From contig CAIYUV010000122.1 of the NCBI GenBank assembly GCA_903929475.1, positions 1 to 64,000 of the forward strand: a stretch of 64,000 nucleotides of DNA, given 5' to 3'. Under the pieces are notes generated by a model. It saw only the letters and a list, made by a program, of their open reading frames with translations. It was not told where the DNA came from and made no database searches. Source of the DNA: an uncultured Spartobacteria bacterium. Its GTDB lineage: Bacteria > Verrucomicrobiota > Verrucomicrobiia > Chthoniobacterales > Chthoniobacteraceae. This document shows positions 139 through 43,409 of the stretch, in pieces. Each line of letters begins with the position of its first letter. Within the stretch, counting starts at the first letter, position 1. The position numbers and the translations under genes were made by a program.

Positions 139-357
139 TCAAACCTTCACGGAAGGTTCGGGCAACTGGTTGATGATCGGCTTTAGATCATTGGGAAGCT
201 TTTCCAAAATGGAACGCAGCGAAAGCGAAGCGACTTCCACGGCTCCGGCAGCCTCGGGATGATGCCGCGCGGAAGCGACAGCAACAGGAACTGGAGCGTG
301 AGCAGGTGCGGCTTTGAAGCCTGCCTTGCTGAAAAGTTGTTTGAGAAACGTGAACAT
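139..357 (-). CDS. Small hypothetical protein (72 aa)
   Basis: ORF with ATG start; contains SLRSILEKLPNDLKPII; lies upstream of the divergent response regulator gene. Confidence 0.45.
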   Translation of the reverse strand: MFTFLKQLFSKAGFKAAPAHAPVPVAVASARHHPEAAGAVEVASLSLRSILEKLPNDLKPIINQLPEPSVKV

Positions 358-512
358 CGTCGGGCGGTTTTTGCAAAAAGAGGGTTAGCAGCATGGGTGC
401 CACGCCGACTCTCGATACAAAAAAACTTTCTCGCCTGCTGGCGGCTTGCCCCCTGCTATAATTTACTGTTCCTCCGCGTTGCAAATTTAAGCGCGAGCCT
501 TACACACCAACA

Positions 513-1571
513 TTGCACATGGGCACCCGCCAAAAAATTCTCATTCTCGATGACGAACAGGATCTCCTGGAAATCTACCAGGAGATACTCGCGCGCCTGC
601 CCAGCCAGCCGGAAATCCGCACCGCCACGAACGGAAACGACGCCATCGCCCTCCTCGAAAACGAACCGTGCGCCCTGCTGCTCGTGGATTTGAACATGCC
701 GCAGATGGACGGCTTCCAAGTGCTCGCCATCGTCCGCCGCCGCTTCCCCACACTCCGCACCGTGGTGATGACGGGCGCGACCGAGGAAGATCTCCGCGCC
801 CGCGCCTACAGCATCGGCGTGGATCTTTATTTGGAAAAACCAAAGACGGGCCGCGAGATCATCTTCTTCGTGGACTGCATCGAGAGCCTGCTCGAACGCG
901 AGAATCAGGGCGGCTTCCGTGGCGTCCAGAGCAAGACTCTGCTCGATATTCTCCAAATGGAATGCATCACGCAAAACACCTGCGTTCTCAAAATCACCAG
1001 CGCACACGGCGAAGGTCGCGTGTGGATTCAGAAAGGCGAAATCATTGACGCCGCCGTCGAAGATAAAAGCGGAAAGCCCGCAATCGTGGAAATGCTCGCA
1101 TGGAAGGCGGGCAATTTTGAAATCCTGCCCTACGGCCTGCCGCGCCCGCGCAATATCTTCATCAACTACGAAAGCCTGCTCATGGAGACGGCCCAGACGA
1201 TGGATGAAGCTGTGGATGCCTCCGAAAATCCCGAGCAAACACCCGAAGGAATGCTCGCATCTTTCTCCCGTTTCACGGGCGTTCAATTTGCGATGGCCGT
1301 GGATCTCACTGGAAGTAAACACGAACACTGGGGCTGTGACGATCCTATCGCACTCGGCGATTGGATTTCCAAAACCGCCAAATCCTTCAAACAACTCGGC
1401 GCAAAAATCCAGGCAGGCGAACTCCTCGACATCGAATCCCTCGGCCAGCAACGCCACCTCTCCATTCTTTCCGGTGATGAAGAAGCCCTCGGCATCGGCT
1501 TCACACGCACACTCGGCATTGGTCAAATCCGCGAAACCCTCAAACAAATCGAAGCAAAATGGGCATTCTAA
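513..1571 (+). CDS. Response regulator receiver with C-terminal DUF4388-like and roadblock-like regions
   Basis: N-terminal receiver motifs ILILDDEQDLLE / LLLVDLNMPQMDG / VVMTGAT; then SKTLLDILQMECITQNTCVLKI..GRVWIQKGEIIDA. Confidence 0.8.
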   Translation: MHMGTRQKILILDDEQDLLEIYQEILARLPSQPEIRTATNGNDAIALLENEPCALLLVDLNMPQMDGFQVLAIVRRRFPTLRTVVMTGATEEDLRARAYSIGVDLYLEKPKTGREIIFFVDCIESLLERENQGGFRGVQSKTLLDILQMECITQNTCVLKITSAHGEGRVWIQKGEIIDAAVEDKSGKPAIVEMLAWKAGNFEILPYGLPRPRNIFINYESLLMETAQTMDEAVDASENPEQTPEGMLASFSRFTGVQFAMAVDLTGSKHEHWGCDDPIALGDWISKTAKSFKQLGAKIQAGELLDIESLGQQRHLSILSGDEEALGIGFTRTLGIGQIRETLKQIEAKWAF

Positions 1572-2278: not shown

Positions 2279-5200
2279 TTACTTCCCGCTGGCCCACTGC
2301 ACTGCGTTTTTCAGCAGCGTTTGGTAGGCTTCGAGGTTGTGGGCGCGTTCGTCGTGGCCGAGGGTGAAGCCGACGATGCGGGCCTTTGGGTGTTTCACGA
2401 TGAAGACTTGTGGGAAGACTTTGCCGCTCTTGCGACTTGTCGCGGTGGCGAGGACTTCGATGGGCGTGGCGCCGGGATCGGGATTGTAGTTATAGAGTTC
2501 GTCGGTGATTTCAAACTCCGCTGGCACGCCCTTCGTGATCGGGTGTTCGGCGTTGGTGACTTTCGCCGTGAACGGTCCGAGCGCGTCGTGACCCTTCGTT
2601 CCGCCGCCGATGATTTCCTTGTTCCACTCGGGGAAGTTTCTCCACGCATACCAGCAGCCGGGATGGTGCGCGATGATGGCACCGCCGCGATTCGCGTAGT
2701 CGAGCAGCGCCTTCTTCGTCGCGGAACTGATGGGCTGGTTCGCGCTGAGCAACAGCACGTCAACGCGGTCGAGGATGGCGGGGATGCCGTTCAGGTTTTG
2801 CGTATAATCCACCCAGCCGGTGACGGGCGTGAGCGTGGCTTTGTCGGTGCCGCCGAAAAACTTCACGAAATCGTGCGACGAACCTCCGCCGACGATGAGC
2901 ACGCGCGGGCCGTTCGCGGGGCGGGCGGCAGGTGGCTGCGGGACAGGGTCGGTGAACTGCGGCTTGAAGCCTGCGTCTTCATCCACAGCAGCGCTCTTCG
3001 GCGCGGGCGCGGGCGCTGCGGCACCGTCACCTAACTCCGCAGTGATCGCCACGATGGTCGGCGCGGCGTTCGTGCCGAAGCTCTCCAGCACGATGCGATC
3101 GATCTCCGTCGCGGCGCTCAACTGCTTCGTGAACCAGCGCAACTGGCGCGCTTTCACGATGCCTTCGGCGAATTTCGAGCCGGGGACATCCACGCGGTTG
3201 ATGTAGTCGGAAAACTCGTTGCCGTTCTTGCACACGAACGTCTCGCTCGCGCCGCCGGTTGCGTGGACGGTGATTTTCAGCACGTCGCTGGTGTCCGTGC
3301 CTTCTTTCAAAAATCCCCAGCCAGTCACACCGCCGAGGAAGTGCAGCCTGCTCGCCCTGAATCCCACTTTCACTTCCACGCGCTGCGGCATCGTCTGCGC
3401 GACCGCGTTTGCCGGGCCGCCTTTGAGCACGACGATGTTCGACGCCGCTTTTTCAGGCGCGACGACATTGAATGGAATGGTGCCGATCATGACCGTGCCC
3501 GTCTTGCTGAACTCGAACGATTCGCCCTTCGCAGCGGCGCTGTTGTAAATGCCGCGCGAGGTGTTCGTGGTGAATGCGCTCTTGAGATCGAGCACGCGGA
3601 ACTTCCCGCCGTCCACGCTCTGCATGTAGGCGATGATGTCGCGCAGCGCTTCGCCGCCGAGTCCCTCGAAGCCCTCGGGCATGAGCGAGCGTCCGGTGTT
3701 CGAGCGCGATTTGAGATCGGCGACTTTCACCTCCTGGACTCCAGCGAGGCTCTTCAGCGTGATGCTCGCGGCGTTTTCCGCAGCGATGACTCCGGAGAAA
3801 AGCTGGCCGTCCTTCGTTTCGAGATTCCATGCGTTAAAGCTCGGGTCCACCTCGGCATTCGGGTCCACGATTGCGCCGAGTAATTCCGCTGCGCCGTGCG
3901 CGCCCATACCGGTGAGGCCGGGGCCGATGTCCGCTCCACCGTCGCCAAATTTATGGCAGATGGCGCAGGTCGTCGTGAAAAGCGCCTTGCCCTTCGCGGG
4001 ATCGCCTTTGCCTTCGACGACGGGGAGGAGCTTCGCGATGGCCTCCTTCTTCGCCTTCGTCTGCGGGTTCAATTCCGCGAGCATGTCGGTGGCGCGTTTG
4101 GCCACGCCTTTGTCGGGATGCGTGCGGAGACGCGCGGCGGTGGTCGGGCCGAGCTTCGTCACGTCCACGGCGTTGCTCTTCAGCGCATCGAGGAAAGCGA
4201 GCGTCCAGTCGGCGCGCTTGAGCAATGTGTCAAAAGCGGGAGCCTGCACGTCGGCGGGCAGTTTTTCATAGGCGGCGGAAAGCGCCGTGCCCACGCTCAC
4301 GTCGTCGGTTTCGCCGAGGGCGGCGATGAGGCCGCGCTGGAAGCCGGGCGTGCCGGCGGCGAGTTGTTTCACCACGGCGGGGAGAATCGTGGCGTCGCTG
4401 CTGCGGAGGCTGATGAGACTGCGCGCGGCGGCGAGACGCGTGGCGTCGTCGGCCTTTGCGTCTGCGACGGCGGAAAGGAGCGAGCCGGAGAGTTTGGCGA
4501 CCTCGCCTTTGAGCGCGCCGGCCTTGTCCCACTTCGCGGCGAGCGGGAGCACGCTGGAATTGGCTCCGCTCACAAGCAGCTTGGCGAGCGCGGCGGAAAG
4601 TTCCGGCGTCATCGCAGGCGCGTCTTTGAGTTTGCCGAGTTTTTCGAGAATCGCGCTCTTGAGCGCATCGGTGCTGGCGGGCTTGCCCGCGAGCGCGACG
4701 ACGAGCTTCGCCGCAGCATCCACATTGTTTCTCCACGCGATGGCGCTGGCGAGTTGCCCGACGAGCTGCGCGAACTGCGCTGGATCCGCGCTATCGAGCG
4801 CAGCCGCTATCGCCGCATCGGGAGCTTGATTGAGCGCGCCAACGGCGGCACTGCGCTGCCAGTCGTCGTCGAATTTGGACCAAGCGGTGGTGATAGTCTT
4901 GGCGGTCGTGGGCCAAACAACGCCTGCGGCAAAAGCACGAAGTGCAGCGAGACGAACTGTGGGATCAGCATCCTCAACAAGCTTTCCAATTTTCGGCTCG
5001 TAGTCTGTGTAAACGCTCATCCCTTTGGCGTAAGCCTCCAAAATCAGCGCGGCGTTTCTGCGAACCGAGGCATCTGTATCTTCAAATCCGGAAAGCATAT
5101 TAAAAGCGGTTGGGAAAATCGCTTGCTTGGTCCAGAGCGTGGCGATGCGAGCATCGGGTGATTTACTGGCTTCAAGCGGTCGCAGAGCAGCGAAAATCGC

Positions 5201-7423
5201 CGCTCTCGTGTCCTCTTTTTTGCCCGGTCCTGCCAATTCCACGAGCAACCTGCTCGCCGTCATCCGCATATGTGCGCTTGGAAACTCCAGCGCCTTCACC
5301 AACTCCGCAACTCCCGCCTTCGACAAATCCGGCACCGTGAGTTTTTTCGCGTCCTTGTGATCAATACGCCAGATGCGGCCGAAGTAGTGGTCGCGGTCGG
5401 GGCGCACGGCAGCGTTGGACTTGTTGTGATCGGGGCCGCGCGTGTCGTTGTGGATGACGGCCTGATTGTAAAAGTCGCCGATATACACCGCGCCGTCCGG
5501 GCCGACGCGCACTTCGATGGGACGCCACCACATGTCGCGGCTGCGGATGAACTCCGTCTCCTCGCGGCCCGGCAGTTTTTTCGCCGAGTAGGTGGAGCCG
5601 GCGGGCGTGAGGCGCTGGTGCGCAATGATGTTGATGGTCGGCTCGGTGCAGAAGTAATCGCCGTTGTATTCCGCCGGCCACGAACCGCCGTCGTAAATCG
5701 CGCAGCCCGCGCCCGCCGTGAAATCGCCCACTCGGTCAATCTGCACGTAGGCCATTTGCTCCCACGTCATCGCGGGGAAACTCTTTTGTGCGCCGATGAT
5801 GACGCTGGAACTTTGCGTGTTGCCCACTTTTCCGCGCGCCAGCGCATACTCGGGCAGGACGACCTGGCTGAGCAGCGTGCCGCTCGTCGGCTGCGTCCAG
5901 AAAAAGCGGTTGTCGCCGGTGATGTGGAGACCCCACGTGTTGCCGCCGCGCGAGCTGTATTGCTCGAAGGCGGAGCCGTCCGGTTTGAAGCGCACGACGC
6001 CGGAGCCGATGTTGCCGAATTTCTTGCTGCCGTCGGGGCTCGTCACGTCGCCTGCGCTGTAGCCGTGCGTGGCGTAGATCCAGCCATCCCAACCCCATCG
6101 CGGATTGTTGATGACCGCGTGAGTGTCGCGCGTGCCGAGGCCGGTGTAGAGTTTTTCGACTTTGCGCGCCTTGCCGTCCGGGCCCGGGTCGTGGATGAAA
6201 AGAATGTCCGGCGCCTGCGTGACGATGACGCCGTCCTTGTAAAAGACGAAGCCGGTGACGAGTTCGAGTCCTTCGTAAAAGACCTCTTTTTTGTCCATCA
6301 CACCGTCGCCTTTGCTCGATGTGAGGATGCTGATTTTGTCGAGAGCCTTGCGCTCCTGCTGGCCGGGCGTGGGGTCAATGCCGCCGTGATCCTTCCACTC
6401 CTTACCACGGTAATCCGGGCGCATCCCGCGACGGCCATTCGGATACTCGGGCGTCTCGGCGACCCACAAACGGCCCGCAGGATCCCAGTCGAAATTCATA
6501 GGCTTCGTGATGAGCGGCTCGGCGGCGACGAGCGTGAGTTTGAAATCCGGGTGAATCTCCAGCGCCTTGAGCGTGTCCTCGGGTTTCTGCGGCCCGCCCT
6601 CGGGATACGTGAGCGAGGCGACTTCCTCCTTCTTGCAAAATTCATCAATATTTTCGCGATGCGCTGCCCACGCAATCGAGCGCAGCAAAATCGCGCGATA
6701 GTGCGGCTTTTCAAAAGTGAAGTAGAGATGGCCGGGGATACTTACCACGGCACGGTATGGTTTCGTCCCGCCCTCGGTGGTCTTTTCGTAAGCCCACATC
6801 ATCGGCTGGATGTCGAAGACCTGCGCCTTGTTGCCGAGGCCCTTGCCGCCGCGCCCGTAGGGCGTGTAGGTCGTGGCCAGCACCTTCACGTCGGGCGAGA
6901 TGTCCATGTCGTAGTAAATCTCGTCATCAATGCGGAAATTCGAGGCTCCACGAGTGATGGGATGACCGCCGCCGATTTGCTGATTCTCCGTGTAGTAGAG
7001 GTCCATCATCCCCTCCTTGAACTTCGTCTTTCCCTGCACCCACGCGCCGCCGATAACCGATTTCCACCACGCCGGATCATTACTCACCGACGCCGTGTGG
7101 ATGACGACAAGCCCGCCGCCGCGCTTCGTGAACTCGGCGACATTCGCCTTCTGCTCCTCGGTCGCGTTGCCGCCATCCTGAGCATACATCACGAGCACGT
7201 CTGTCTGTTTGAGTTGCTCGGCGGTCGGCCAGTCCATCGCGCCGTCGGTTTTCATCCCGCGCTGCGCGAGCAACACCTTCCAGTCATTCAGAAATTTCTC
7301 GTGCTCATGCGCATTCGGCCCATGTGATTTTTTTCCACCACGGATGAATACCCGGAGCGGTTCGGCGGAGAAGGCGGAGAGTGAAAAACAGAGGAAGAGA
7401 CAGAGTTGAATGAAGCGTTTCAT
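2279..7423 (-). CDS. PVC-type membrane-bound dehydrogenase with HEAT-like region, cytochrome c (CAICH) and a ThuA-like domain at each end
   Basis: Signal peptide MKRFIQLCLFLCFSLSAFSA; N-terminal ThuA-like region; FKLTLVAAEPLITKPMNFDWDPAGRLWVAETPEYPNG; CAICHKFGDGG; C-terminal second ThuA-like region (GPRVLIVGGGSSHDF). Confidence 0.85.
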   Translation of the reverse strand: MKRFIQLCLFLCFSLSAFSAEPLRVFIRGGKKSHGPNAHEHEKFLNDWKVLLAQRGMKTDGAMDWPTAEQLKQTDVLVMYAQDGGNATEEQKANVAEFTKRGGGLVVIHTASVSNDPAWWKSVIGGAWVQGKTKFKEGMMDLYYTENQQIGGGHPITRGASNFRIDDEIYYDMDISPDVKVLATTYTPYGRGGKGLGNKAQVFDIQPMMWAYEKTTEGGTKPYRAVVSIPGHLYFTFEKPHYRAILLRSIAWAAHRENIDEFCKKEEVASLTYPEGGPQKPEDTLKALEIHPDFKLTLVAAEPLITKPMNFDWDPAGRLWVAETPEYPNGRRGMRPDYRGKEWKDHGGIDPTPGQQERKALDKISILTSSKGDGVMDKKEVFYEGLELVTGFVFYKDGVIVTQAPDILFIHDPGPDGKARKVEKLYTGLGTRDTHAVINNPRWGWDGWIYATHGYSAGDVTSPDGSKKFGNIGSGVVRFKPDGSAFEQYSSRGGNTWGLHITGDNRFFWTQPTSGTLLSQVVLPEYALARGKVGNTQSSSVIIGAQKSFPAMTWEQMAYVQIDRVGDFTAGAGCAIYDGGSWPAEYNGDYFCTEPTINIIAHQRLTPAGSTYSAKKLPGREETEFIRSRDMWWRPIEVRVGPDGAVYIGDFYNQAVIHNDTRGPDHNKSNAAVRPDRDHYFGRIWRIDHKDAKKLTVPDLSKAGVAELVKALEFPSAHMRMTASRLLVELAGPGKKEDTRAAIFAALRPLEASKSPDARIATLWTKQAIFPTAFNMLSGFEDTDASVRRNAALILEAYAKGMSVYTDYEPKIGKLVEDADPTVRLAALRAFAAGVVWPTTAKTITTAWSKFDDDWQRSAAVGALNQAPDAAIAAALDSADPAQFAQLVGQLASAIAWRNNVDAAAKLVVALAGKPASTDALKSAILEKLGKLKDAPAMTPELSAALAKLLVSGANSSVLPLAAKWDKAGALKGEVAKLSGSLLSAVADAKADDATRLAAARSLISLRSSDATILPAVVKQLAAGTPGFQRGLIAALGETDDVSVGTALSAAYEKLPADVQAPAFDTLLKRADWTLAFLDALKSNAVDVTKLGPTTAARLRTHPDKGVAKRATDMLAELNPQTKAKKEAIAKLLPVVEGKGDPAKGKALFTTTCAICHKFGDGGADIGPGLTGMGAHGAAELLGAIVDPNAEVDPSFNAWNLETKDGQLFSGVIAAENAASITLKSLAGVQEVKVADLKSRSNTGRSLMPEGFEGLGGEALRDIIAYMQSVDGGKFRVLDLKSAFTTNTSRGIYNSAAAKGESFEFSKTGTVMIGTIPFNVVAPEKAASNIVVLKGGPANAVAQTMPQRVEVKVGFRASRLHFLGGVTGWGFLKEGTDTSDVLKITVHATGGASETFVCKNGNEFSDYINRVDVPGSKFAEGIVKARQLRWFTKQLSAATEIDRIVLESFGTNAAPTIVAITAELGDGAAAPAPAPKSAAVDEDAGFKPQFTDPVPQPPAARPANGPRVLIVGGGSSHDFVKFFGGTDKATLTPVTGWVDYTQNLNGIPAILDRVDVLLLSANQPISSATKKALLDYANRGGAIIAHHPGCWYAWRNFPEWNKEIIGGGTKGHDALGPFTAKVTNAEHPITKGVPAEFEITDELYNYNPDPGATPIEVLATATSRKSGKVFPQVFIVKHPKARIVGFTLGHDERAHNLEAYQTLLKNAVQWASGK

Positions 7424-7516
7424 GAATGTTTCTAGCGGTTGGGAATTTGAAGCGGGCGTCGTGTGTAGCCCGCCCGCAGACAACCGCCAGCCTTTCCAAA
7501 AACTTAGGCGAAACCC

Positions 7517-9759: not shown

Positions 9760-9855
9760 TGCCGGACGTTACGCGCAGCGGCGTGCGCAAGGCAACTGCG
9801 GGAGATGTTCAGCGCGAAGTTGGCAAGCGCGTCGCATTGCCCTATGCCGCGTGCG

Positions 9856-10308
9856 ATGGAAAACAACAACAACCGCGAAACTGCCACACAGCGCCAGCCT
9901 GTGACCCAACGGCTGCTGTGGTTCCTCGCCGGGGCGGTCGTGAACTACCTGCTGATCGCGACGCCTTTCAAATACCTGAGCAAGCACCATCCCGACTGGC
10001 CGACGCTGTTGATTTCGGCGTGCAGCCTCGGGGTAAGCACGACGTTTTTCTATTTTTGGAATTATTTCGTCAATTTCCGCACTGACTCGCGCAAGCGCGA
10101 CGCCTTTGCGCGCTACATCACTGCCGTGATTGTTCTCTGGCTTATCTCCACCGGTCTTCTTGCATTCTTCAAAAGTTTCAATGCTGGCTTCGCGCTAAAA
10201 CTCGGCAATTACCAAATCGATCTCGATGTCGTGGCTCTCCAGGCCTGCTTCGGGCCACTGAAATTTCTCGTCTATCACTATTGGGCCTTCCCCGTGGCGA
10301 AACATTGA
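9856..10308 (+). CDS. GtrA-like multi-TM protein
   Basis: FLAGAVVNYLLIATPFKYL..; four predicted TM helices; GtrA-type C-terminus PLKFLVYHYWAF. Confidence 0.6.
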   Translation: MENNNNRETATQRQPVTQRLLWFLAGAVVNYLLIATPFKYLSKHHPDWPTLLISACSLGVSTTFFYFWNYFVNFRTDSRKRDAFARYITAVIVLWLISTGLLAFFKSFNAGFALKLGNYQIDLDVVALQACFGPLKFLVYHYWAFPVAKH

Positions 10309-10352
10309 ACAAGAGTTGCCGGATGACGCGCCGACCGACTAAGTCTGTTCCC

Positions 10353-10985
10353 ATGTTGCGCACGACCTTTCTCGCCGCCGTCCTCGCCTTCACCGCCGAT
10401 GCCGCGCCTCTGCCGCAGGCGCGCGCCAATGCGCTGCGCGATCAATTTGAAACACGACAGCGCGAGACGAAGACTTGGTCGGCAAATTTCACACAGACCG
10501 TTGCGATGCCGGGCATGCGCGAACCGGTCGTGAGCACTGGCACGCTGTCGTATCGCGCGCCGGAGCAACTGCGGCTCGATTTCACGAAGCCTGCGGATGA
10601 ATTCGTCCTCGCGCTGGGTGATCAGCTTTTTGTGCAAAAGGCGGGGAAAAAACCCGCGCTCAAATCGCTGAGCGGCGACAATGCGGGAAAACCCTTCCAG
10701 TCGCTGCTCGGCCTGCTGCGCGGCAAGCCGGTAGAGGAGGAGGCTTTTTACACAGCGGAAGTTTCGCGCGAGGCAGGTCGCTACATCGTGGTGCTCACGC
10801 GCAAGGCGGATGCCTCGGGCCGGATGCCGAAGCGCATCACCAACTCGATTGACGTGGAGTCGCTCGAAGTGCGCGAGGTGATTGTCGAACTGCCGAATGG
10901 TGGCACGCTCACGTATCGCTTCGACGAAATCGCACGCAACCGCCCGCTCGATGCAACCCGCTTCGCCGCACCCGCGATACGCTGA
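10353..10985 (+). CDS. LolA-like outer membrane lipoprotein carrier protein
   Basis: Signal peptide; TWSANFTQTVAMPGMREPVVSTGTLSYRAPEQLRLDFTKP is typical of LolA-like proteins in polyene clusters. Confidence 0.75.
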   Translation: MLRTTFLAAVLAFTADAAPLPQARANALRDQFETRQRETKTWSANFTQTVAMPGMREPVVSTGTLSYRAPEQLRLDFTKPADEFVLALGDQLFVQKAGKKPALKSLSGDNAGKPFQSLLGLLRGKPVEEEAFYTAEVSREAGRYIVVLTRKADASGRMPKRITNSIDVESLEVREVIVELPNGGTLTYRFDEIARNRPLDATRFAAPAIR

Positions 10986-11036: not shown

Positions 11037-11330
11037 ATGAGTGAACGTCCGGACAACCTCGACGCCATGCCATGCGATCCCGCTACGATGCAGGTCGCAA
11101 CGCGCCTGCTGGGACGCATCCGCAGCGAACTGTTGGAACTCGACGGCTCCTTCGGCGTGGACTCCGATCTTTTCGCCGCGGGGCTCGACTCGATGGCGAT
11201 CATGCAACTCGTCCTTATGCTCGAGGACGAATTCAACGTGAAGTTGCCCGACTGCTCGATCACGCGCACGACTTTCGCCACCGCGCGCCAGATAGCCGAG
11301 GCCGTCGCCACGGCCCGCGCGCAATCCTGA
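11037..11330 (+). CDS. Acyl carrier protein
   Basis: Phosphopantetheine motif FAAGLDSMAIMQLVLMLEDEF. Confidence 0.88.
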   Translation: MSERPDNLDAMPCDPATMQVATRLLGRIRSELLELDGSFGVDSDLFAAGLDSMAIMQLVLMLEDEFNVKLPDCSITRTTFATARQIAEAVATARAQS

Positions 11331-37145: not shown

Positions 37146-37292
37146 GACCTGCTATAAGTGCGGCTCGATGCGAAAAAACAAGAGCAAACTTGGGCTGACC
37201 GATGAAAAAGCCGTGCACCCGCATGGCACGCGGGCTTGCAGTGGGCGGCGCTCGCTGCGAGACGGAGGCGATGCGAACGGAAAATTTGTCAC

Positions 37293-39635
37293 ATGGCGTC
37301 CACTCACGCTGACTCCGTAAAGAAGCGGCGTCACGCATGGCGTCCGCGAATCATCGTCGTGCTGGCGCTGCTCGCAGGCGCGGTGTGGGCGGGTTGCACG
37401 ATCCGGCTGGAAACTGAACTGCTCGCACTGCTGCCGCCGGACTTGCCGAGCGTGCGCGGGCTCGATGGCTTTCAGCGCCAGTTCGCCAGCGACCGCGAAG
37501 TGGTGCTCGTGGCCGAGGAAAATCTGCCCGCAGCGGAACGCGAGGAGTTTTTCCGGAAACTCAAGCCCGCCCTCGCGGCTCTGCCGGGCGTCGAGTCCGT
37601 GGAAAGCACAGGCGGCGAGTGGCTGAAATCCGCACCGCAGCTCGCAGCCTGGGCCGTCTGGAATCTCCCGCCGGAGCAATTTGCAAAAGTCACCGCCTCG
37701 CTTACCGATGAACGCGTCAAACAGCGTCTCGCGGAACTCCCCTCGATCCTCGCCGGCGCCCTCGATCCCGAGGAAATGGCGAAGCGGCAGTTCGATCCCC
37801 TCGACTTGCTCGACGCACTCGGCGGAGGCGGAGACGACAGCGGCTTCCAATGGACGGGGCAGGCTGCAAAATCCCTCACGATCACATCCTCGCACCCGCT
37901 CATTGCATTCCAGGACTGCGCGAGTTTCTGCAATGCAATCCAGTCCGCCATCCAGCGCGCACTTCCCGGTGAAAAGCGGCTGCTGCTCACGGGAAGGCCC
38001 GCATTTACCGCCGAAATCTCCACACAAATGCGCAGCGACATGATCCTCATGATGGTCGTCGCGACCGTGCTCGTGAGCGCGGCGTTCTGGGCCTTCTACC
38101 GCACCGTGCGGCCGCTCGGCTGGATACTCCTCGGCCAGTTCCTCGCACTCGGCGTCGGCCTCATCACCGCGCGGCTCGGCGCAGGGTCGCTGAATGTCAT
38201 CAGCATGGGCTTCGCCTGCATTCTCCTTGGGATCAGCATGGACTACAGCATCCTCGTCTATCACCACTTTGCCTCGCCGCTTCGCGAAGATCACCACGTC
38301 TGGGAGCGCTTGAAACACGGCATCTGGTTCAGCGCCGTCACGACTGCCGCCGCGTTTCTCGTGCTCGCGTTCTCATCGCTCCCGGGCCTCCGCCAGCTCG
38401 CGATGCTTGTCGCCTCGGGCCTGGTTGCCTCCGCGTGGTTCGCCACATGGCTGCTGCCGGCAGCGTGGGCCACGCGCATTCCGAAACCGCTCCCCTTCCT
38501 CCAGCGCGCGAGCGACGCGATGGCCCGCACGATGGACCGCCGCGGACTCCTTTTGCTCGTCATCGTGATCCTCGCCGCACTCCCCGTCGGCTGGAAGCTC
38601 CTCCGCAACCCCGCCTCCCTCTACGCGCCCGAGTTGGACAACCTCCAGCCCTCCACCAGCGCCGCATTTCGCGGACAACTCATCCTCGCAAAAAACGACC
38701 CCTCCTTCCGCGACGCCATCTACCTCGTCCAGGCACCTTCCTGGGATGCCGTAAAAGACGCATCCGCCGAAATCACCAACCGTGTCGCCCCCGGGCGCAT
38801 CTCGCCGATGAACGGCTTCCTCCCCTCCCCGAAAAACCAGACCGCAAATCGCAAATTGTGGCCCGCCTCCCCGCAAACCACCGCCGCCCGCCTGCGAAAA
38901 GCCTTCGCAGACGCCGGCCTCGGCAGCGAGTGGAGCGAATCCACCATCACCTTCGCAGAAACGCTCGACCATGCCGGTTCCAGCGAAGCCTTTCACGCCG
39001 TCCAGCCACTCCTTTCCAAGCTCTTCACGGAAAAAACCGGCCAGTGCCGCGCCATCATCCGCGTCCCCGACGCCGGCGAACACCCCATCCCCGCCGCCGG
39101 CCTCGCCATCGCCGGAGCGGACGTGATGCCCGTGAGCTGGGTCGCCCTCAAAGAAGAACTCAACCGCACCTCCACCGGCGACCTCGGGCGCCTTGGCGGA
39201 TGGGCCCTCGTCGCCATCGCCGCACTCTGCGCCCTCGCCCAGCGTTCCCTGCGAATGGTGCTCTTGAATTTCGCCGCGCTCGTCATTTCCCTCCTCCTGC
39301 TCGCCGCTTTGCTTTCAATCACCGGCACACAACTCAGCGCACTCTCCCTCCTCTGCGTCCCGCTGCTCCTCGGCCTCGTCGTGGACTACAGCCTCCACGT
39401 CCTCATGGCCCTAGAACATGAACACGGCGACTTCCGCCAGCTCTACGCCCACATCGGCGCCCCCATATTACTCACCGGCCTCTCCTCGTGCATCGGCTTC
39501 GGCGCACCCATGCTCACCAGCCAGCCCGCATTGCAAAACTTCGGCCTCGTCATGGACCTCGGCATCATCGCCGCCGTCACCTCCTGCCTCTTCCTCCTCC
39601 CCGTCCTCGCCCGCATCACCGCACGGCGGAAATGA
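37293..39635 (+). CDS. MMPL/RND-superfamily exporter
   Basis: Two sets of TM helices around large loops; GFACILLGISMDYSILVYHHF; LLLGLVVDYSLHVLMALEHEHG. Confidence 0.85.
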   Translation: MASTHADSVKKRRHAWRPRIIVVLALLAGAVWAGCTIRLETELLALLPPDLPSVRGLDGFQRQFASDREVVLVAEENLPAAEREEFFRKLKPALAALPGVESVESTGGEWLKSAPQLAAWAVWNLPPEQFAKVTASLTDERVKQRLAELPSILAGALDPEEMAKRQFDPLDLLDALGGGGDDSGFQWTGQAAKSLTITSSHPLIAFQDCASFCNAIQSAIQRALPGEKRLLLTGRPAFTAEISTQMRSDMILMMVVATVLVSAAFWAFYRTVRPLGWILLGQFLALGVGLITARLGAGSLNVISMGFACILLGISMDYSILVYHHFASPLREDHHVWERLKHGIWFSAVTTAAAFLVLAFSSLPGLRQLAMLVASGLVASAWFATWLLPAAWATRIPKPLPFLQRASDAMARTMDRRGLLLLVIVILAALPVGWKLLRNPASLYAPELDNLQPSTSAAFRGQLILAKNDPSFRDAIYLVQAPSWDAVKDASAEITNRVAPGRISPMNGFLPSPKNQTANRKLWPASPQTTAARLRKAFADAGLGSEWSESTITFAETLDHAGSSEAFHAVQPLLSKLFTEKTGQCRAIIRVPDAGEHPIPAAGLAIAGADVMPVSWVALKEELNRTSTGDLGRLGGWALVAIAALCALAQRSLRMVLLNFAALVISLLLLAALLSITGTQLSALSLLCVPLLLGLVVDYSLHVLMALEHEHGDFRQLYAHIGAPILLTGLSSCIGFGAPMLTSQPALQNFGLVMDLGIIAAVTSCLFLLPVLARITARRK

Positions 39636-39791
39636 GACGCGTGTCCCTTGCGACCATAGAGCCCGTGCAGTCCAGCGGCACTCCCCAAAGACAAATGGAC
39701 TCCGTGGACACGATGGACAGGGAAACTCCCCCCTCGCTCCGTGGGCGTTTGCGCCGTCCCCGGCCCTGATTGTGGCTGGATGGGGAAATGG

Positions 39792-40673
39792 AACGCCGAA
39801 TCGGTGAAAGATTGCGGCCTACGGGTGGAAAATTGCGAGCTACGATGCCACGCTTGCGGCAAATTTGAAGAATTTTACCGGAAAACGGTGAAGTATCGCT
39901 GGAAAACCGTGGAATCTTGCTGGAAAACGTGAAAAGCGAGCGGCCTACTGGAAGTGTGGAATGGCAAAAAGTAAGTGTCTAGCACGAGATGCAACTTATT
40001 TTATGCGCAAAAGACTTTGTATTTTTTAAAAAACAGACTGCATTTTGCTCAAAATAGAATTTCTAGTTCTTAATGCATACTTTCTTTCCATAAATGCAGT
40101 ATTGCTCGTGCTAAATGCAGCGTGTCTCGGACTAGATGTAGACTAACTTTAGCTTAATGCAGAGTTTATTTATCTAAATGCAGTATTTCTTTACAGAAAT
40201 GCAGTTTGCATTTAATACAAGTAACACTGCATTTTACTCAAGTCACACTGCATTTCGCATAAGATTTCTTACATTTGCTATAAGTTTCTTTGCATTTGCT
40301 GCAATAACTCGTGCATTTTATGTGAGAAAGTCTGCATTTAGTGCTAGCAACTCTGCATTTTAAGCGAGACTTTTTAAAGTTGCCGCAAGTGACCTTAAAG
40401 TTGCCACGAATGTTCTCCGAGTTATCGCAAGTAATCTCCGAGTTGCCATGAGTGTTCTCCGGGTTGCCGCAAGTGTCCTACAAGTTGTCGTAAGCGTTCT
40501 CCGAGTGGGCGCAAATGATCTCCGAGTTGCCATGAGTGTTCTCCGGGTTGCCGCAGGTGTCCTCCAAGTTGCCGTAAGCGTTCTCCGAGTGGGCGCAAGT
40601 GATCTCCGGGTTGCCGCAGGTGTCCTCCAAGTTGCCGCAAATTATCTCCGGGTAGCCATAAGGGTCGTCTCGG
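39792..40673. repeat. Array of 42 head-to-tail, indel-free, strongly drifting 21-bp units
   Basis: Units cut every 21 bp from 39792 align without a gap (e.g. 39897 cgctggaaaaccgtggaatct; 40170 ttatctaaatgcagtatttct; 40233 tttactcaagtcacactgcat; 40464 ttgccgcaagtgtcctacaag); unit position 9 is A in 40 of 42 units by hand count. Confidence 0.92.
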
Positions 40674-40705
40674 CCGCTAATCCCCATGCGTCGTCTGCGA
40701 TTCGA

Positions 40706-40934
40706 GGAACGCCAACGGCGTTCAATCATTCAGCCCAGGGTTGGCGCGACGAAGGAGCGCCTACCCTGGGTAACGGGAGAGCGGCATCAACCCTGAAAGG
40801 GTTGAATCCATTCGTGCAACCGCCGGTGGATTCAACCCCGTTGGGGTTGTGGTTTTGTCGGGGCGCTATCCCAGGGTAGCCACGACTGCGTCGCGTCAAC
40901 CCTGGGCTGATAGATGGAACGCCGTCAGCGTTCC
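40706..40934. repeat. REP-like, mirrored multi-hairpin palindromic element
   Basis: GAACGCC-aac-GGCGTTC (40707-40723); CAGCCCAGGGTTG (40731-40743) is the exact reverse complement of CAACCCTGGGCTG (40897-40909); inner hairpins TCAACCCT-gaa-AGGGTTGA and CAACCCC-gtt-GGGGTTG; GGAACGC-cgtca-GCGTTCC (40916-40934). Confidence 0.88.
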
Positions 40935-41095
40935 CACACAGGCCAGCCACCACTCGCCTTGCCTCTTCTGCGTTCCCACACAGGCCAGATGCCACTCGCC
41001 TTGCGTCGTCTGCGTTTCCACACAGGCCAGCCGCCGTTCGCCTTTCCCCTTCTGCGTTCCGACACTGGCCATCCGCCGTTCGGCTTTCCCGTTTG
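40928..41095. repeat. 42-bp tandem repeat, 4 units
   Basis: Units at 40928, 40970, 41012 and 41054: gcgttcccacacaggccagccaccactcgccttgcctcttct and variants, period exactly 42. Confidence 0.92.
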
Positions 41096-41110
41096 CTCAG
41101 TAATCGCCCC

Positions 41111-41932
41111 TTATTTCGCGGGCGCTGGTTCGGCGGGCGGGGTCGGTGTTCCCGTTTTGGCGGCTTCTTCGAGGGTTTCGCGGACAAATTTCGCGTGCAA
41201 CACGTCGCCGATGCCGAGGGGGTAGTGGACGGAGCGCTCTTCATACTTGGTGTTGATTTTTTCGTCGCTGCGGAATTGCGCGATGACCATGCCGATGACC
41301 ACCGGGTGGCCGTCGCCGCCGGGGATGAAGGCAGGCCCGCCGCTGTCGCCGTCGAACGCCGTGAAGTCGGCGAGAAAGGTGTGCTTTTTGCCGTAAGGCA
41401 GCAGCGGGTGGCTGGCGATGATCCCCTGCCGCGCGACGGGGTAGCCCGCTTCGTTGGCCTCGAAGGTCGTGGGGTAGGTGAGCACGAAGAGCTGGCTGGT
41501 CACGCCGAGCGCTGCGGCTTTCAGGCGTGCTTCGTCGGCGAGCGCGTTCATGGGCACCGTCGGCGCGGGCACCGGGAGCGCGCTCGTGATTCGCAGCACG
41601 GCTACGTCGTCTTTCGGATGGCGCACCCACAGCGCCTTGCCGGCGTTTTTGATCTCCACCTTGTGCTCGCGCTTTTTGAAAGTGCCGTCTTCGCGCCGCT
41701 CGCGCAGCACGAGCGTCGCCTTGTCCGCCTTCATGCCTTCGAAAACATGCGCTGCGGTGACGAGATAGATCGCTTCATCCGGCGCATCGCGCTTTACGAG
41801 GAAGCAAGTGCCCGTCACCGCCGGGTCCCACACTTTGAAAGTCGCCTCGACCATCTCCGTCGCCGAATCGGCAGAGGCAGTGAGCGCAAAACCGAGGATG
41901 CCGAGGAGCGTTGTGAAAAGAGAAAGTTTCAT
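41111..41932 (-). CDS. Trypsin-like serine protease
   Basis: GTCFLVKRDAPDEAIYLVTAAHVFEG; KDDVAVLRI; FDGDSGGPAFIP catalytic triad; signal peptide. Confidence 0.85.
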   Translation of the reverse strand: MKLSLFTTLLGILGFALTASADSATEMVEATFKVWDPAVTGTCFLVKRDAPDEAIYLVTAAHVFEGMKADKATLVLRERREDGTFKKREHKVEIKNAGKALWVRHPKDDVAVLRITSALPVPAPTVPMNALADEARLKAAALGVTSQLFVLTYPTTFEANEAGYPVARQGIIASHPLLPYGKKHTFLADFTAFDGDSGGPAFIPGGDGHPVVIGMVIAQFRSDEKINTKYEERSVHYPLGIGDVLHAKFVRETLEEAAKTGTPTPPAEPAPAK

Positions 41933-42143
41933 CCGAGGAAAATGGTTCGCATGGCGCGGGGAGTAGAGCGCCCCCGCAGCGATGTGAACAGCGGGAAGTG
42001 TTACTTGCGGCGGCGTCACTGCACATCACTTCCGCATCTTAGTCACTTTTTGCACGCGACCCGCTAATAATTACGCCAGAAATACTGGACACCTCTCGCA
42101 CGCTTCCCCACCGTCCCGCGCCTTACCCCCGCTCACACATACC

Positions 42144-43409
42144 ATGAAACTCAACGTCACCACTAAAACATGGCTCCTCGCGCTGCCGTTCATCGCAGCC
42201 CTCCTCTCCGCCACTCCCGCCAGTGCGCAGGCACCAGCCGCTGCCCCGGCTGCAAAAAAGGACAAGAAATCGAAATCCACGCCCGCCGAGAAAGCCGCGA
42301 AGGCCGCGAAATCCGAGGCGACACGCGCCGCATTCTTCAAAAGCACGAGCGACAAGATTCCCACCATCAATGTCACCATCGCTCCGTCGCCCGGTGCCGT
42401 GAAGCCCCTCACGCCGCTCATGACGGAGCCGAAGAAATACGTCAAAGCGTCCATCAACATCGGGCCCTATAATTTCGCCAACGTCGGCATCCACCTCCGC
42501 GGCGGTCTCGGCAGCTTCCGCAACGTCAACGACAAGGCCGGGTTCACGGTCAACATGGGCAAATTCGCTGAGAAAAAGGATTTCTTCGGCATGGATAAAT
42601 GGGCGCTCGTCAATTCCGCACAGGACGGCAGCTACCTCTCCCTCCTCGTCGCCAATGAAATGCTCCGCGAATCCGGCGTCCCCGCCCCGCGCATCAGCCA
42701 CGCCATCGTGAACCTCAATGGAATGCCCAAAGGTTTCTACTGCATCCAGGAGGGTTACGATTCCAACTACTTCCAGATTCATTTCAAAAACGGCGACGGC
42801 AATTTCTACGATCCCGGCTTCAAGAGAGACATTGATCAGCCCTTCGAACTCGTCCGCACCAAGGACGACGTCAAAGACAACGCCGATGTCAAAGCCCTCC
42901 TCGCCGCAGCCCGCATCGGCGACCCCAACCAGCGCTTTACCGAAATGGCAAAGCTCATGGACATGGATACCTTCATCAGCGGCTTCTGCATCCAGGCCAT
43001 CCTCGGCGACTGGGACGGCTACGTTTTCAATCGAAACAACTACCGCGTCTATCACAACCCGGCGACCAACAAAATCTTCATCCTCCCGCACGGCCTCGAC
43101 CAGGAATTTGGCAACGCCGACCAAGGCCCGCTCGTCCCGCCGATGCAATCAATCCTCGGCCCCGCAGTCTTCAACACTCCCGAAGGCAAGGCGCGCTACC
43201 TGAAACGCATGGGCGAAATCAACACTACCGTCATGGACACCGACAAATGGCTCAAGCGCCTCGATGCCCTGCAAGCCAAACTCCAGCCCGCCATCGCCAG
43301 CGTGGACGCCAAAGCCGGAGCCGACTACCCCAACCAAGTCAACCGTCTCCGCGAGTTCTTCAAAGTGCGCCCCAAGAGCATTGACCGCCAGCTCAAGGCC
43401 GCGAAGTAA
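42144..43409 (+). CDS. CotH-family kinase-like secreted protein
   Basis: VGIHLRGGLGSFRNVNDKAGFTVNMGKF; ILGDWDGYVFNRNNYRVYHNPATNKIFILPHGLDQEFG. Confidence 0.88.
   Translation: MKLNVTTKTWLLALPFIAALLSATPASAQAPAAAPAAKKDKKSKSTPAEKAAKAAKSEATRAAFFKSTSDKIPTINVTIAPSPGAVKPLTPLMTEPKKYVKASINIGPYNFANVGIHLRGGLGSFRNVNDKAGFTVNMGKFAEKKDFFGMDKWALVNSAQDGSYLSLLVANEMLRESGVPAPRISHAIVNLNGMPKGFYCIQEGYDSNYFQIHFKNGDGNFYDPGFKRDIDQPFELVRTKDDVKDNADVKALLAAARIGDPNQRFTEMAKLMDMDTFISGFCIQAILGDWDGYVFNRNNYRVYHNPATNKIFILPHGLDQEFGNADQGPLVPPMQSILGPAVFNTPEGKARYLKRMGEINTTVMDTDKWLKRLDALQAKLQPAIASVDAKAGADYPNQVNRLREFFKVRPKSIDRQLKAAK

Follow-up and report, generated by a model that had tools for sequence, protein, structure and literature searches.

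Non-coding arrays with a fixed 21-bp period and their linkage to an undescribed gene family

Tandem repeats in bacteria are normally classed by sequence, and the described systems closest to the array analysed here share only some of its properties. Plasmid iterons are non-coding direct repeats about two helical turns apart, lying just upstream of a Rep_3 initiator gene; array A, in the 64,000-nucleotide window analysed (contig CAIYUV010000122.1 of an uncultured Spartobacteria bacterium, assembly GCA_903929475.1), has such spacing over 42 units but no Rep gene beside it, its neighbours being MMPL-family and trypsin-like genes, and the proteins linked to related arrays match no Rep family. These arrays are also longer, chromosomal, many per genome and locus-specific. 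The BrickBuilt minisatellite-MITE of Porphyromonas gingivalis (PMC4596501) is likewise a multi-copy intergenic tandem repeat of a unit of about two turns (23 nt), but has one unit sequence in a MITE with small inverted ends, whereas here the unit differs by locus, only the period is fixed and a gene family is linked. Borg tandem repeats (PMC9879509) are numerous, intergenic and genic, and fast-evolving, but their units are perfect and of many lengths, with only 14-38% of intergenic unit lengths divisible by three, whereas here the units diverge and the length is fixed. Cyanobacterial heptanucleotide repeats (STRR) invite comparison because 21 is three times 7 and heptamers occur beside array B (a second array of the same genome) and at locus L333, but there was no 7- or 14-bp sub-period (lag-7 excess 0.00 in A; means of -0.007 at lag 7 and -0.009 at lag 14 over 28 arrays), and a heptamer origin was rejected. 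CRISPR arrays are direct repeats beside genes, but array A shows no repeat-spacer alternation, no leader or cas gene was seen, and the whole unit drifts. In comparison with MITEs and other transposons, array B has inverted heptamer stretches at both ends and an empty site in the sister species G005, but the heptamers occur at the empty site in G005 too and no clean target-site duplication was found. No description of such arrays was found in the open-access literature, to which the searches were limited.

The 21-bp register of array A is real, and the observation made in the preliminary description is confirmed. Identity at lag 21 was 0.585 against about 0.27 (0.20-0.29 at lags 15-20 and 22-27), and every 150-bp window from about 39.8 to 40.65 kb had a positive lag-21 z against shuffles, including the 39.8-40.37 kb part (0.554), for which the lack of a significant 21-nt peak had been set beforehand as grounds for rejection. 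Unit column 9 is A in 40 and G in 2 of the 42 units, exactly as had been stated. Wraparound alignment to local consensus found 0 indels at 0.31 mismatches per base, although the spanning tree of units requires at least about 125 substitutions, for which 6-12 indels would be expected at an indel:substitution ratio of 1:20 to 1:10. TRF fits a compensated indel near 39880-39934, and the claim that not one base was inserted therefore holds for the net register. Over 39753-40743 there were 9 to 19 stops in each of the six frames, which rejects a coding origin, though single frames of up to 143 aa are open in the right half.

The preliminary description did not recognise that the array consists of two inverted arms meeting at ~40205. 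Left-arm units read AAATGCAGnnTnnCTTG on the + strand and right-arm units read the same on the - strand. Array B (G000:C203, G000 being the genome that contains array A) has the same unit, the same inversion and the same gradient from GC-richer outer units (GGGAGATTCTTGC) to AT-rich inner ones, and a profile built from B, an independent array, scored higher on + in 17 of 20 left windows of A and on - in 21 of 21 right windows. DNA searches with A in 57 relatives and with its core in 291 genomes of the phylum recovered only array B. Coordinates of these and other features are collected in the table, in which G and L numbers denote the genomes and loci of the analysis.

Table. Positions of array A, its surroundings and features at other loci
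Sequence	Position	Strand	Feature	Basis
Window	39792-40673		Array A, 42 units	Register and lag-21 identity
Window	39792-40211	+	Left arm, 20 units; inner type AAATGCAGnnTnnCTTGnnC, outer type GGAAAACCGTGGAATCTTGCT	Units and register; profile of array B
Window	40197-40213		Centre of symmetry, AAATGCAGTTTGCATTT, AT-rich	Sequence; best complement symmetry near 40205
Window	40212-40673	-	Right arm, 22 units, same motif on the - strand; outer type AACTCGGAGATCACTTGCGGC read on -	Units and register; profile of array B
Window	40378-40662	-	Higher-order 84-bp (4-unit) and 42-bp repeats within the right arm, a mark of unit-block duplication	TRF; lag-84 identity 0.79
Window	40673-41111		Palindromic, REP-like repeats (GGAACGCCAACGGCGTTC, CCCAGGGTTG...CTACCCTGGG) and a 42-bp array next to A; part matches A's right flank in inverted orientation	Sequence comparison
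Window	40846-41159		Neighbouring 42-bp array (GCGTTCCCACACAGGCCAGCCGCCACTCGCCTTGCCTCTTCT)	TRF; period scan
Window	37236-39635	+	Left neighbour gene, MMPL-family protein, ends facing the array	Pfam PF03176, 2.6e-17
Window	41111-42019	-	Right neighbour gene, trypsin-like protein, ends facing the array (convergent)	Pfam PF13365, 4.8e-10
Window	42144-43409		CotH-like protein
L008 (G000)	10308-10950		Array B
L008 (G000)	9829-9860 and 11140-11205		Heptamer repeats (TGGTGAATGGTGACTGGTGAA) at both ends of array B, in opposite orientation
L333	14825-14860		Heptamer repeats beside another 21-bp array
L338 (G000)	5295-5342		Terminator-like hairpin (GGGGCGCGCTCTTCAACGGGGCGCGCCCCGTTTGTTTG)
L413 (G007)	7387-7434		Terminator-like hairpin
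L383	14337-14397		Terminator-like hairpin
L130 (Chitinophagaceae)	3422-3814		Array directly upstream of a family-1 gene	Repeat pattern; family-1 HMM, E 1e-32
L074 (Chloroherpeton MAG)	3565-3992		Array next to a family-1 gene (weak match)	Repeat pattern; family-1 HMM, 2e-7
L112 (MAG contig)	2349-2724		21-bp array upstream of a Rep_3 gene, probable plasmid iterons	Pfam PF01051
L180 (MAG contig)	197-526		21-bp array upstream of a Rep_3 gene, probable plasmid iterons	Pfam PF01051

To determine whether array A is isolated, about 1.65 Mb of sampled stretches from six congeneric draft genomes was scanned at all periods from 5 to 130. Of 42 strong detections, 24 were at 21 bp (22 distinct arrays; one, L424, inside a long gene) and 6 at 42 bp, with the rest at 126 (3), 69 (2, leucine-rich-repeat type) and 7 (2) and single cases at 6, 8, 12, 18 and 60; none was at 19, 20, 22 or 23. 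At L397, the register was interrupted by one compensated indel pair in 789 bp. Units are mostly locus-specific, but some unit families recur between loci and species (A-B, L332-L413 and L349-L434-L442-L338 in blastn comparisons), with no hit in a column-permuted control. About 320 kb from four more distant relatives gave one 21-bp array (L372), probably coding to judge by its unit, and 80 kb of one congener (G008) gave none. Array sites also differ between species, with a tRNA in G007 where L333 has its array, and with array B absent from the gap between bioB (98% identical) and the hexosaminidase gene in G005.

Gene calls made by a script from codon usage placed nearly all arrays with at least one gene start facing them, array A being the only convergent case, and the array-facing proteins fell into families of about 205-260 aa. 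Family 1 (~233 aa; MKRxxYYPS...) occurs at L338, L383 and L423 in three species, and a search of the phylum found it in 6 of 390 genomes, in several families and classes, often in many copies (at least seven in G000 and in G298, a different family of the class). Of 15 members with at least 250 bp of upstream sequence, 13 have a 21/42-bp array there (z 6.9-17.1), with best windows 130-620 bp from the start, whereas downstream z21 never reached 6; several members with short upstream sequence are at contig ends, where assembly would break in an array. The binomial p is about 5e-19 against the array density of the genus, an approximate value because that density was also used for other genera. Family 1 had no match in Pfam or PHROGs, no meaningful match in NCBIfam or PADLOC, and none in viral, phage and plasmid searches, and the structure model of one member (L130) was useless (pLDDT 31). 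In G298, the order is array, small WxSG-repeat ORF, family 1 and then a gene starting MPFDP; such an ORF with W-x-S/D-G repeats (MALWSNGALWNSGTLWGP...) between array and family-1 gene, and the MPFDP gene downstream, were seen at L485, L486, L488, L479, L475 and L477, a probable conserved operon of unknown function. No family-1 hit was found in the window.

Repeat-pattern scans of genome and viral contigs returned mostly coding heptad repeats by chance of AATGCA, but the non-coding minority, obtained by pattern rather than by unbiased sampling, extended the class to other phyla. The family-1 HMM hit L130, the Bacteroidetes locus L308 (3e-33) and, weakly, L074, of which L130 and L074 had been fetched only by repeat pattern. 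A second pair of Chitinophagaceae genes (L148, L151), 26-33 bp from 21-bp arrays, has a predicted helical N-terminal part and, in L151, for which the structure model was only partly confident, a CarboxypepD_reg beta-sandwich. Two further 21-bp arrays found by pattern (L112, L180) lie upstream of Rep_3 genes (PF01051) and are probable plasmid iterons. Some non-coding arrays in Nostocales-type cyanobacterial genomes (L157, L171, L185 and other loci; for example TGCATTAACATAACATCGCTC), sometimes several per genome, also have period 21.

Array+gene units have been exchanged between shared flanks. L338 and L413 share a 488-bp flank at 94.7% and a 48-bp flank at 90%, around different array+gene units of about 1.28 kb each. 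The 48-bp element, a GC-rich hairpin followed by T-runs, follows several family-1 genes as well, and this conserved terminator-like hairpin was found after different array-linked genes at L338, L413, L383, L474, L478, L343 and L482. L332 and L482 carry homologous arrays, only L482 with the family-1 gene, so solo arrays such as A are not unique.

The interpretation offered in the preliminary description is partly supported. The array is non-coding, its register is kept beyond ordinary decay and 21 bp matters more than sequence, but the inverted arms, the dozens of sister arrays and the linked gene family were missed. Phased curvature, one of the roles it proposed, is weakly supported: in the wedge model, the predicted net bend of A is 88.6 deg per 126 bp, above the genome 99th percentile (83.8) and 2.6 sd above column-permuted arrays, but only 17 of 27 arrays exceed their controls and many GC-rich ones do not, so curvature alone is not the likely function. 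A structured RNA, also proposed, remains possible, as A and B fold better than shuffles (z -3.3 and -7.4, on only 20 shuffles each), but most other arrays show no obvious inverted arms.

A tentative explanation is that array A is a gene-less (solo) member of a class of non-coding arrays with a fixed 21-bp period, which would normally form the 5' part of a two-part module: an array, then 20-420 bp later a gene for a small two-domain protein (family 1), sometimes with more genes, and in several copies the shared terminator-like hairpin. In this view, with sequence free, spacing fixed and indels absent, the property kept is helical phase (21 = 2 x 10.5), so that every unit lies on one face of the helix and the array could act as a long phased platform for cooperative binding or wrapping by a protein, working like plasmid iterons. 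The analysis itself establishes the class, the period lock, the linkage to the gene family, the absence of an array at a sister species' site and the exchange of array+gene between shared flanks, whereas it is only inferred that a protein binds and reads the array (perhaps the module's own product), that this controls or marks the downstream unit, and that A lost its gene. Array A lacks a family-1 or other array-facing orphan gene within ~0.5 kb downstream and is therefore classed as a solo array and not a full member, its assignment resting on array anatomy and on array B, whose downstream ORF is of unknown family. A bolder version, which is considered doubtful although not excluded, is that bacteria of several phyla carry an undescribed two-part genetic system, in which a period-locked array of free sequence but fixed helical phase is paired with a fast-evolving protein, with a helical N-terminal and (where seen) a beta-sandwich C-terminal domain, that assembles on the array or depends on it, with array+gene units moving and swapping between loci and A being a solo array with inverted arms. 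That the sequence is free and only the spacing is held suggests that something reads DNA by helical phase, and the link to one uncharacterised protein family, in many copies and in more than one phylum, turns a curiosity into a definable system with a gene to test. Such a system would be new as a kind, a judgement resting on the absence of matches in the searched libraries and of an open-access description.

The strongest alternative, although considered unlikely, is a selfish or neutral 21-bp minisatellite family, in which units spread and amplify by slippage, unequal exchange and recombination and the period is simply inherited from ancestral arrays without function. The unit sequences shared between loci, the higher-order 42/84-bp blocks, the empty site and the lineage-specific arrays are consistent with this, but unit length should then wander, whereas no array is 19, 20, 22 or 23 bp and A has no indel at 31% divergence, and linkage to one gene family across classes and phyla would not be expected. 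Less likely still is that the array is transcribed and works as RNA, as a long hairpin of the inverted arms or as a repeat-bearing 5' leader that binds the downstream protein; the folding of A and B and the frequent ending of arrays within a few hundred bases of a start codon could be explained in this way, but RNA gives no reason for exactly 21, A lies between convergent genes, and the Rfam search returned nothing credible.

Similarly improbable is that the arrays are recombination substrates through which array+gene cassettes are exchanged, somewhat like integron or Rhs cassettes. The shared flanks of L338 and L413, the shared 3' element after different genes and the shared outer units favour this reading, but there is one clear swap case, the 3' element looks like an intrinsic terminator, no integrase was seen next to the arrays, and exchange does not need a 21-bp period. 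A decayed gene for a heptad-repeat protein (21 bp being seven codons) or an assembly artefact is very unlikely: single frames of the right half are open and A comes from a draft genome, but the stops in every frame, the inverted arms, the absence of indels and the similar arrays in several genomes and phyla all argue against it. Beyond the immediate surroundings of array A, a CotH-like protein family is present in the window and in at least five further places in the genome, in six or more diverged copies, some with a single stop codon, and lies near several arrays (L332, L383, L033).
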